Origin: Fulvivirga sp. | GTDB lineage: Bacteria; Bacteroidota; Bacteroidia; Cytophagales; Cyclobacteriaceae | DNA length: 38,533 nt | Reading direction: 5' to 3' | Assembly (NCBI GenBank): GCA_028280565.1 | Contig: JANQLQ010000031.1 | Span: 1 to 38,533, forward strand | Part shown: positions 446 through 34,565 of the stretch, piece after piece | Layout of the letters: each line of letters opens with the position of its first letter | How positions within the stretch are numbered: position 1 is the first letter of the stretch | The notes under the pieces: generated by a model | What the model saw: the letters and a program-made list of their open reading frames with translations, nothing else | Databases searched by the model: none | Told to the model about the DNA's origin: nothing | Made by a program: the position numbers and the translations under genes

Positions 446-769
446 TAGGGTATCATTGAAAATTCAAGTGGCGTATCGAGGGTAGACATCCAGGAACAGC
501 GCGGCCCATTTGAGGCCTGCGGATAAGCGGCCTATAAGGGCTGGACAGTGCGTTTTGAGGGGAAAATGGGCTTGGTTGCTGGCGCCCTTTTCTTTTGTTT
601 CGTTTTCTTTTGGGCGGGCAAAAGAAAATGAAAACTGGACTTAGAACCTCAAAATCCCGCGTATACTGCTCATTGAGAGGTTCCCATTACCCTAAACACC
701 TTAAAAATATAGCTTAACTTGCCAAAATTAAACGTTCTACTATCAAAGCTAATTTTCAAAGACACCCTA
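446..769 (+). mobile_element. MITE-like element, copy A (intact)
   Basis: The element is bounded by TAGGGTATCATTGAAAATT (446-464) and AATTTTCAAAGACACCCTA (751-769). The reverse complement of the right end matches the left at 17 of 19 positions. Both ends finish in TA, so a 17-bp terminal repeat starting GGGT with a TA target duplication fits. The interior shares long near-identical blocks with the elements at 4440, 22286 and 34103, including GACATCCAGGAACAGCGCGG and an A/T-rich hairpin (cgttttctttt against caaaagaaaatg). It has no credible ORF. Small size, no coding capacity and inverted ends define a MITE-like element, probably moved in trans by a transposase outside this window. The family assignment is unknown. 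Confidence 0.75.
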
Positions 770-4439: not shown

Positions 4440-4766
4440 AGTTTGACGCATGGAGGGGAGACATCCAGGAACAGTGCGGCACATTTGAGGCCTGCGGGTA
4501 AGCGGCCCATAGGGGTTGGATAGCGCGTTTCGAGGGGAAAACGGGCTTTGTTGCTGGCGCCCTTTTCTTTTGTTTCGTTTTCTTTCCCCGAAGGGATGCC
4601 CATGGCATGGGTGTGCAAAAGAAAATGAAAATCGGGTTTAGAATCTCAAAATCCCGCTTAAACTGCTCATTTCCAGGCGGGCATTACCCGAAACATCTTA
4701 AAAATATAGCTTAACTTACCAAAATTTAACGCTTTACTATCAAAGCTAATTTTCAAGGGTGCTCTG
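4440..4766 (+). mobile_element. MITE-like element, copy B (left end decayed)
   Basis: The interior matches copy A from gacatccaggaacag through ttagaatctcaaaatcccgc to tatcaaagctaattttcaa. The right terminus (4748-4766, AATTTTCAAGGGTGCTCTG) agrees with the copy A right end at about 13 of 19 positions. The left TIR is not recognisable, so the left boundary is approximate. In place of the short A-type loop it has a longer one containing ccccgaagggatgcccatggcat, which it shares with copies C and D, so two subfamilies are visible. It lies directly downstream of the protease terminator, in the same orientation as the gene. Reverse-strand ORFs across it are chance readings of repeat DNA. Confidence 0.7.
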
Positions 4767-9970: not shown

Positions 9971-10283
9971 CGATCAAATAAATAAAACAACTTGAATCCG
10001 GGATAACGATTCCCAAAAAAGACTGTTATTGTCACTGCAAATGGCGGACATTTAGCAAAAAATGCTTGAATGCAGGGCAACAAGAGTCAACGTTTTCTTA
10101 GCTCACTCAAGAGATAGTATTCCCCACTCACTGGGCGGCTCAGGGCCGCCCGGTGAGTCATACGGGTTAGAGTTTTAGAACTATTGACCAGGCAAGTATT
10201 TCCTCCTCTCTCCCCTGGTAGAAACATCCCCTTCGAGGAATTACGGTTGATGCTGCAAGTTTGATGAGCCACACCTTCGCGCC
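9971..10283. other. Gene-free structured region with a strong G/C hairpin
   Basis: CTCACTGGGCGGC (10127-10139) pairs with GCCGCCCGGTGAG (10145-10157) with one G-T pair and a five-base loop. It has no T-tract, so a simple terminator is unlikely. The reading frames here are short and overlap repeat DNA. On the minus strand this stretch continues from the two-hairpin repeat at 10284-10402. It may be part of a decayed mobile element. Confidence 0.5.
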
Positions 10284-10402
10284 GATTTTGCAAAGGAAAG
10301 GTTCCTGTCTTGATGACAGGGTTCGTAGGACACCCGCATTACAAATGCTCGTGTTGGCGCCCTGTATTACTCGATGGGTGCGCGTTGCAAACGCCGACCA
10401 AT
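10284..10402 (-). repeat. Two-hairpin REP-like repeat, copy 1 (minus orientation)
   Basis: Read on the minus strand this matches 34391-34525 over more than 100 bases with scattered substitutions. It contains GCGTT-GCA-AACGC (10382-10394) and ACCCGCATTACAAATGC (10332-10348), whose core GCATT-ACA-AATGC is a perfect five-base stem. A third hairpin, CCTGTC-TTGAT-GACAGG, lies at 10304-10320. Paired palindromes with identical loops are typical of REP/BIME-like elements. Reverse-strand ORFs over it are artefacts of the repeat. Confidence 0.65.
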
Positions 10403-21480: not shown

Positions 21481-22299
21481 ATGGTTGTTTTTCCAAATGC
21501 TAAGATCAACATAGGGCTGAACATTTTATCCAGGCGAGAGGATGGTTACCATAATATCTCCTCGTGTTTTTACCCTATTCCTTTGTGCGATGTGCTGGAG
21601 ATCGTTCCTTCTGAAAAATTTGAATTTACGGGTTCCGGGATACTTGTAGACGGTACGTTTGAGAAAAACTTATGTGTAAAAGCCCTGCGGCTACTGCAAG
21701 AAGATCATGCCATAGGTGAAGTAAAAATGCATCTACACAAAGTGATCCCCATGGGTGCGGGACTTGGTGGAGGCAGCGCAGATGCTACGTTCACTCTAAA
21801 AGTGCTCAATAAGCTGTTTAGCCTCGGTCTTTCCACCCACAAACTGGAAGAATACGCCGCCCAACTTGGAAGTGATTGCCCGTTTTTCGTTAGGAATGAA
21901 CCCGTGATGGCTACAGGTACAGGAACTGAATTCACACCTTGCACGATAGACTTAGCAGGCAAATACCTCGTGTTGTTGTATCCTAATTTACATATCTCAA
22001 CACAAGAGGCATATAGCGGTGTAAAGCCTGCTTTACCTTCTCATGACCTGCAAACTGTCTTGACAGAAAAACCATTAAAAGACTGGCCGCAATGGGTAAT
22101 CAATGATTTTGAAGGCTCCATTTCCCACAAGCATTCAATTATCTCACAGCTAAAGGCCACTCTATATGATCATGGTGCTTTTTACGCCAGCATGACGGGC
22201 TCCGGATCAGCCGTGTATGGGATTTTCGAAAAACCCTTAACCAACTCCAAAGAACTACCAGGCATCGTTTGGAAGGGAATACTACCAGGACATCATTGA
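21481..22299 (+). CDS. ispE: 4-diphosphocytidyl-2-C-methyl-D-erythritol kinase
   Basis: The 272-residue GHMP kinase phosphorylates the 2-hydroxyl of CDP-methylerythritol in the non-mevalonate isoprenoid pathway. Motifs are NAKINIGLNI at the N-terminus, the ATP-binding loop PMGAGLGGGSADATFTL (about 97-113) and the C-terminal GHMP motif MTGSGSAVYGIF. It is cytoplasmic and of normal length. The last codons (CCA GGA CAT CAT TGA, from 22285) run into the terminal repeat of MITE copy C, so the element supplies the final residues and the stop codon. The remainder is intact, so activity should not be affected. Confidence 0.95.
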   Translation: MVVFPNAKINIGLNILSRREDGYHNISSCFYPIPLCDVLEIVPSEKFEFTGSGILVDGTFEKNLCVKALRLLQEDHAIGEVKMHLHKVIPMGAGLGGGSADATFTLKVLNKLFSLGLSTHKLEEYAAQLGSDCPFFVRNEPVMATGTGTEFTPCTIDLAGKYLVLLYPNLHISTQEAYSGVKPALPSHDLQTVLTEKPLKDWPQWVINDFEGSISHKHSIISQLKATLYDHGAFYASMTGSGSAVYGIFEKPLTNSKELPGIVWKGILPGHH

Positions 22300-22570
22300 A
22301 AATTCAAGCGGCGTGCGGAGGGGGGACATCTAGGAACAGCGCGACACATTCCAGGTCTGTGGGTAAGCGGCCTATAGGGGCTGGATAGCGCGTTTAGAGT
22401 GGAAGATGGGCTTGGTTGCTGACACCCTTTTTTGTTTCGTTTTCTTTCCCCAAAGGAATGCCTATGGCATGGGCGAGCAAAAGAAAATGAAAACACCGAG
22501 CTTAGAACCCCGAAATCTCGCGTATACCGCCCATTTCCAGGCTGGCATTACCCGAAACATCTTAAAAATG

Positions 22571-22743
22571 CGTGAGTTTTAGGCTATTCAACCCACCTAT
22601 AATACTTCACTTCAATGCAAAGTATTGAAAACCAGCTTTTAACCGCAGAGGACACGGAGTAATCCCTGTGGCCCTCGGCGGTCTTCTCCGTTTTCTCTTC
22701 GGTTAAACCATTGACTACTTGGCAATTAAAGCCAAAACTCATG
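22571..22743. mobile_element. Second small inverted-repeat element nested in MITE copy C
   Basis: Its left end CGTGAGTTTTAGGCT (22571-22585) is mirrored by AGCCAAAACTCATG (22730-22743), giving roughly 14-base terminal inverted repeats with one mismatch and one extra base. It falls exactly where copy C departs from copy A. It holds the large hairpin annotated at 22638-22707 and no ORF. A nested MITE or a hairpin repeat captured later are the two readings. Confidence 0.5.
22638..22707. repeat. Long hairpin repeat (AACCGCAGAG type)
   Basis: Twenty-two bases at 22638-22659 match the reverse complement of 22686-22707 at 19 positions (TTTAACCG-AGAG-A-ACGGAG), with a 26-base loop. The text (accgcagag, cacggag, ctcggcggtctt) is of the kind seen as dispersed intergenic repeats in many bacteria. 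No T-tract follows, so it is not a simple terminator. Confidence 0.65.
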
Positions 22744-22872
22744 TCAAGAATGCACCCCAATTCTCCAAAAATAAACGTTCTCCTATCAAAGCTAGTTTTC
22801 AAGGACGCCTCACCACCAAAAAGGTGCAAATCAACGTCCTTTTAAAGCTCTTGAGCCGGCACTTTCGCGCAC

Positions 22873-34102: not shown

Positions 34103-34565
34103 TAGGGTATCATTGAAAATTCAAGTGGCATATGGAGGGGGGACATCCAGGAACAGCGCGGCACATTGGAGGCCTGTGGGTAAGCGGCCTATAGCGGCTG
34201 GACAGTGCGTTTAGCGCAGAAAATGGGCTTGGTTACTGGCACCCTTTTTCTCTGTTTCGTTTTCTTTCCCCGAAGGGATGCCTATGGCATGGGCGAGCAA
34301 AAGAAATAAAGACCAGTGACCTGTCCTAAAATAAGTTTACAAGTTAGACATTTAAATCCTGGCCATGGTTTACACCAGGCTTAGAACCTTAAACTGGTCC
34401 GTGTTTGTAACGCGGACCCACAGAGTACTATACAAGGTGCTCACACCAGCATTTGTAATGCGGGTATCCAACGCACACTGTGATCAAGACGGAAATCTTC
34501 CCCTTGTAAAACCAGCGCCCAACCGGTAAGTCATAAGAAGATCGATAATTTTCAAGATCCTTGTA
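34103..34565 (+). mobile_element. MITE-like element, copy D, carrying insertions
   Basis: The left end TAGGGTATCATTGAAAATT (34103-34121) is identical to copy A, and the body matches copies B and C up to caaaagaaat at about 34311. About 65 foreign bases follow, including tgacctgtcctaaaataag at about 34317, which looks like an insertion-sequence end. Homology returns briefly at gcttagaacctt (34379-34390), then the two-hairpin repeat begins. The right end is decayed; AATTTTCAAGATCC at 34547-34560 is the best remnant. The element lies 180 bases past the ABC permease, in the same orientation. Confidence 0.65.
34391..34525 (+). repeat. Two-hairpin REP-like repeat, copy 2 (plus orientation)
   Basis: Hairpin 1 is GGTCCGTGTT-TGT-AACGCGGACC (34396-34418), nine of ten pairs Watson-Crick plus one G-T. 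Hairpin 2 is ACCAGCATT-TGT-AATGCGGGT (34445-34465) with one mismatch. Both have the loop TGT. The sequence aligns with the reverse complement of 10284-10402 past both hairpins, ending near accagcgcccaacc. It sits inside MITE copy D. No ORF is supported. Confidence 0.65.

Follow-up and report, generated by a model that had tools for sequence, protein, structure and literature searches.

What is the short repeat at 446-769 of this Fulvivirga contig, by what means did it spread, and does it carry anything besides its inverted ends? The window, meaning the whole 38,533-nt stretch of DNA analysed here, was compared with the rest of the host genome and with related genomes. The most likely answer, as far as sequence comparison can give one, is that a MITE shell with IS ends is spreading an uncatalogued structured RNA. 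We are fairly confident of the explanation as a whole, in which a non-autonomous MITE with the ends of an IS would be moved in trans by a transposase and would carry a structured core as cargo.

The sequence-only reading of the window had described 19-base inverted repeats agreeing at 17 positions at the edges of copy A, which can be read directly from the sequence. The sharp inverted ends are 17 bases long, and the 19-base version (446-769) agrees at 17 positions. The same interior had been placed at three further window sites, and copies B, C and D are indeed there. The window copies are not all intact, since B lacks its 5' end, C is interrupted and D lacks its 3' part. The interruption of copy C (22571-22739) consists of ∼170 bp of other DNA. 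Both loop types distinguished by that reading (copy A versus B, C and D) are real. Other features of the window include an 89-bp inverted pair, 80% complementary and 24 kb apart (10279-10367 and 34430-34518), and type IX secretion tails in encoded proteins, a trait that points to a host in the Bacteroidota. The flanks of copy A (240-410 and ∼775-850, the second stretch judged by eye) are part of another dispersed repeat (GGCAATCGGCAACCCC..GCCTACTGCC), and several MITEs lie inside or adjoin that repeat, at least three of them at TAAGAA.

Table. Positions of the element and its parts in the window
Feature	Position	Strand	Remarks
Copy A, full-length MITE, GGG...CCC	448..767	+	sharp ends common to many genome copies
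5' inverted end of copy A, GGGTATCATTGAAAATT	448..464	+	pattern match, 0 mismatches
Structured core, model R1	472..634	+	186.3 bits; R1 was built including copy A
P1 5' arm	490..497	+	pairs with 575-582; one G.G mismatch in copy A
P2 5' arm	504..511	+	pairs with 564-571
P2 3' arm	564..571	+	pairs with 504-511
P1 3' arm	575..582	+	pairs with 490-497
Pyrimidine tract, TTTTCTTTTG	588..597	+	putative third strand, also fits P4 3' arm; based on tracts of other genomes
P4 hairpin	601..630	+	601-612 with 619-630, loop 613-618
3' inverted end of copy A, GGGTGTCTTTGAAAATT	751..767	-	end-pattern match
Copy B, without 5' end, long-loop type	4444..4762	+	
Copy C, long-loop type, interrupted ∼22571-22739	22287..22810	+	
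Copy D, without 3' part, long-loop type	34104..34314	+	

The interior of the element folds, and the fold is conserved between genomes. A DNA search recovered parts of copy A in 8 of 58 genomes (host included). In alignment A1 (18 sequences: nine taken from the window or other genomes, the others host copies), three helices are paired in 95.2% of cells, with 27 compensated cells against 7.0 after shuffling and 0-4 after sliding. Alignment A4 comprises 53 matches from other genomes (51 distinct; 4-5 look secondary or opposite-strand and were retained) and gives 283 compensated cells against 75.2 shuffled and 42-85 slid, with all 28 pairs changed on both sides, counts that lean towards the structure because R1 was the model to which A4 was fitted and A1 already held 8 of the 53 rows. 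Of 148 genomes in the order, 28 have a match to model R1, and of 395 in the phylum, 20 match R2 (built from A4) at 1e-5, both counts including the host (at most 19 and 7 places scored per genome, respectively). When 23 R1 matches from 17 other genomes were folded singly, P4 formed in all 23, and at least six long-range pairs formed at the place of P1 and P2 in 21; the match from G031 gave none and that from G561 five. The lowest-energy fold of the G556 sequence differs by eye from the model. Searches against Rfam 15 gave no gathering-score match in the window or in 12 core loci of other genomes, and a lax threshold on the core gave six matches, all far below gathering score.

In other genomes the core occurs mostly without the MITE ends. 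It is a dispersed repeat in G039, where the flanks of 11 core copies lack these ends by eye, and the single-contig genome G580 (L244 4907-9843) holds 10.1 tandem copies of a 491-bp unit in which the core has diverged. The well-conserved, hairpin-rich interior noticed in the window is a structured core that many genomes hold without these ends, a point that had escaped the description.

The 3' part of the core reaches further. The P4 pattern occurs in 6 of 395 genomes of the phylum (host included), and the reversed pattern is absent from these six. A Burkholderia version of the pattern was found in 21 of 72,556 plasmid records, with at least 38-40 places in each of seven Paraburkholderia replicons, and a Haliovirga plasmid (Fusobacteriota) gave a hairpin-only match. 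Pseudoalteromonas replicons contain four forward-strand TwoAYGGAY matches above gathering score (51 bits in L203; 65, 65 and 52 bits in L261), and the P4 module starts ∼20 nt 3' of each. These TwoAYGGAY matches with a P4 hairpin lie at 107-1794 of L261 and 466-646 of L203; three further matches, of which two are on the opposite strand, score below gathering.

In a comparison of 28 rows, the pyrimidine tract before P4 agrees better with the P4 3' arm of its own lineage than with those of other lineages. The antiparallel fit reaches 242 of 252 (229.7 on average after shuffling) and the parallel fit 234 (212.9 on average), with none of 5000 shuffles as high, for rows that are kin by descent and to which some genomes contribute more than one. 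The tract reads TTTTGTTTT where P4 is A-U and CCTTTTTTG where the 3' arm ends in GG. Counted per stretch, its orientation is tied in 36, antiparallel in 10 and parallel in 3, with 5 stretches having no hairpin. If the three strands do co-vary, they would make up either a switch between two mutually exclusive hairpins or else a triple helix. All this can be drawn together, tentatively and as one joint reading that we think doubtful as a whole, into a mobile RNA family that is widespread in this phylum at least, with a three-strand 3' part and with a 3' module akin to repeats of Pseudomonadota and Fusobacteriota. The same doubt, as a single joint estimate, covers the vehicles this family might use, namely IS-ended MITEs here and end-less repeats and 491-bp tandem arrays elsewhere.

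Whether the fold matters as RNA or as DNA can be approached through its wobble pairs. A fold needed as RNA read in this direction should show an excess of G-U over A-C. In other genomes the ratio is 37 to 4 over all pairs and 23 to 3 when the default G-U pair is omitted, whereas in the host (107 matches aligned with the same model) it is 34 to 37. Two core pairs are mostly broken in the host, one P1 pair being G.G in 65 of 94 and one P2 pair A.G in 60 of 96. The G-U excess suggests that between genomes the fold is most likely conserved as RNA, and its lack in the host copies makes these look like drifting passengers. We read the two together as constraint elsewhere and passenger drift in the host, where the counts speak against an RNA function.

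The host counts are also what would be expected if the core mattered as DNA (a cruciform or single-strand hairpin) or as a plain terminator between converging genes, rather than as a specific RNA. The gene context fits this too: of 60 loci where the element has reading frames on its flanks, 37 are placed between converging, 21 between co-directional and 2 between diverging genes (90, 327 and 98 of the 515 gaps that these loci contain), window copies B, C and D all sit between converging frames, and a U-rich tract follows P1 on its 3' side. Set against it are the 23-to-3 ratio in other genomes and the retention of three separate helices, which is probably more than a terminator would need. At the 21 co-directional loci the element runs with the genes in 7 and against them in 14, too few to tell. 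On this evidence a DNA or terminator role seems rather unlikely, and an RNA remains the preferred reading of the core.

The family in the host is far larger than the four members counted by the sequence-only reading, because the end pattern AGGGYRTCNTTGAAAATTA (up to two mismatches) gives 174 + 179 = 353 matches in the 9.05-Mb genome against 3 + 0 for the reversed-pattern control; it numbers hundreds of end matches. In 997,068 fetched bases, from regions mostly picked because they hold hits, a profile of the element matched 132 times, and 70 of these matches are nearly full-length. The 52 two-ended copies are mostly ∼320 bp, or ∼342 bp with a longer P4 loop, and a few are near 300 bp. Outside arrays, the flanks diverge right up to GGG and from CCC onward, so that the boundaries at the proposed ends, on which the idea of an element could have failed, are sharp. 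The copies contain no transposase gene, as had been noted, and their number is high, both of which suit a MITE. Some copies are connected by a 97-bp linker, found at 38 places in the fetched stretches (L026 618-714 and 37 others); it touches an element at 36 of these and has elements on both sides, head to tail, at 18. Many linker copies contain the palindrome GGATTACAAATCC. Literature searches with tract strings and topic words, judged by titles and abstract starts, gave no paper that we recognised as describing this element. A search of named genomes with the exact 3'-end pattern returned 8 stretches against ∼30 expected by our own estimate and was set aside, and phage matches were weak (E 2-6) and were not used.

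The dispersed core of G039 and the tandem core of G580, both without such ends, would suit a REP- or ERIC-like hairpin repeat with its own route of spreading, for which the inverted ends would be a side feature and a DDE transposase would play no part. In the host, however, the copies have their boundaries at the inverted ends and show target duplications. An IS with the same ends also exists elsewhere, and we consider this alternative improbable.

That IS came out of the suggested check for a full-length element with the same ends. A search of 60 genomes of the family (host included) found two inward-facing ends 1.7 kb apart in G023, which belongs to another genus. They delimit a full IS (L151 2-1705; the contig begins at the IS end) with MITE-type ends GGGCATCCTTGAAAATT. 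Its reading frame, taken from the ATG at 156, encodes a 445-aa protein. The protein matches DUF772 in Pfam (26.7 bits, over the cut-off of 23.1), while DDE_Tnp_1_2 (25.9 bits, cut-off 29.2) and DDE_Tnp_1 (16.3 bits, cut-off 23) fall under theirs. Its best NCBIfam matches are the IS5-type models NF033578 (transpos_IS5_1, 172.5 bits, cut-off 275) and NF033593 (113.6 bits, cut-off 325); with both scores below the curated cut-offs, membership of the IS5 family does not follow from the models and we call the protein IS5-like. At E 0.001 it matches 11 of 38 genomes, and the host assembly, searched among the 38, has no match. Related ISs are present in G006, of the same genus as the host (13 matches), with ends (GGCCTCCCTTGATAATT on the 3' side) related but not identical to those of the MITE. 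IS pieces in G010, cut by contig ends, have no recognisable matching ends.

In the host itself, 21 inward end pairs lie 360-6000 bp apart (in 997 kb), and no transposase was recognised by eye in the reading frames of 7 of these 21 regions. An IS5-type transposase does occur in the host (G000:C179:27930-29188; L281, L282) and is its one strong IS5_1 match (two frames, 304 and 104 bits), with a 6-bp TAGATA duplication; its ends (GTCGTCCCTTAAAA) differ from those of the MITE, and it was rejected as partner. Shared ends would also result if the MITE were an internal deletion of one IS, with the core once part of that IS. By eye the G023 IS and the MITE have only their ends in common, and the core is found in other families without those ends, which makes such an origin very improbable.

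The target site was read from copies with both ends and flanks. Exact direct repeats of at least 6 bp abut the ends of 10 of 51 host copies (start and end being allowed to shift by one or two bases), against 0.63 on average and at most 4 in 200 shuffled pairings; the other 41 have no exact duplication, and none is present at copy A itself. The duplicated stretches are 6-7 bp long, with T first and A last (TAAGAA, TAGGGTA, TGATTA, TGGTCA), and the three TAAGAA cases among the ten are not independent because all lie in one host repeat. When the flanks of each copy were joined, junction-spanning paralogues were found for 8 of the 51 (107 matches in total). Empty paralogues of L094, L100 and L119 have a single TAAGAA, and those of L089 have one copy of the TAGGGTA stretch, reading CAGGGTA in two; L111 lacks a clean duplication; L038 and L101 are ragged. 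In G006, six IS copies among the 13 matches were read, and each has a duplication of 6-7 bp (TATAATA, TAAAAA, TAAATA, TACTTTA, TAAGTA, TATTTTG). In G002 and G003 the MITE ends are intermediate in kind, and the duplications, read by eye, are TATCTA, TAAGTTA, TATTTT and GAAGATT. One MITE copy in G010 has an imperfect repeat, and in the G013 copies these ends were not seen.

Flanks and empty sites thus bear out an element that duplicates its target, at a size of 6-7 bp (T....A) and not the TA duplication that the ends had suggested. Because the duplicated stretch starts with T and finishes with A, A and T flank the GGG..CCC ends, and T-A stands before GGG and after CCC in most of 36 non-array copies. 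The TA noted at the outer edges is real in most copies, as the inner edge of the longer duplication and not as the target. IS630/mariner elements duplicate TA, and the TA at both outer edges would fit one, but such an element is hardly credible here given duplications that merely start with T and end with A, empty paralogous sites that speak against a TA duplication, and an IS5-like protein in the IS with these ends.

We therefore return to the MITE that is most likely moved in trans, as first proposed, a view consistent with the sharp boundaries, the duplications, the empty paralogues and the IS with the same ends elsewhere. The element, mostly ∼320 or 342 bp long, bears the inverted ends of an IS with an IS5-like transposase. 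We infer that a transposase of the G023 type moves it, and this enzyme, acting in trans at GGG...CCC, would duplicate the 6-7 bp target T....A. Its copies lie mostly between converging genes, some of them in head-to-tail arrays with the 97-bp linker. The cargo would be the structured core (P1, P2, pyrimidine tract and P4) and not an IS remnant. As nothing in the host assembly matches that transposase, the family is probably a fossil or awaiting a new supply.

MITEs are usually regarded as empty shells. A shell with a traceable IS relative that bears a fold kept in other genomes makes it testable whether transposon ends serve structured RNAs as vehicles. With R1 and R2, a class of repeats frequently placed at contig ends and between converging genes can be searched for, and the putative three-strand 3' module, from several phyla, is a concrete structure for probing.

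MITEs are also known from Porphyromonas gingivalis, of the same phylum as the host. BrickBuilt, MITE464/PgRS and MITE700 of that species have the ends of IS5-family elements, and BrickBuilt contains tandem repeats and no transposase remnant (PMC4596501). The P. gingivalis elements differ in their end sequences (GAGACC.., ACGT..) and in a 23-nt minisatellite inside, and the excerpt of that account used here describes no conserved fold (PMC4596501). The MITE of Cardinium is likewise IS-derived and spread in one genome; it differs in coming from an IS982-family element and, in the excerpt used, is reported as unique to one strain (PMC9769881). Members of the IS1202 family of the ISAjo2 type have outer ends 5'-TGT (PMC10132070), a trait that the G023 IS, with its GGG ends, does not share. 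The P4 module adjoins matches to the TwoAYGGAY RNA (RF01731, PMC2864571) in Pseudoalteromonas, whereas the MITE core itself gives no gathering-score match to RF01731 in the window or the 12 core loci and has no AYGGAY loops by eye. Seen more broadly, the element is like other dispersed repeats of bacterial genomes in being structured and intergenic. ERIC and REP/REPIN sequences are repeats of this kind, from which the host element is set apart by its inverted ends, its duplication of 6-7 bp and the existence of an IS that shares those ends.
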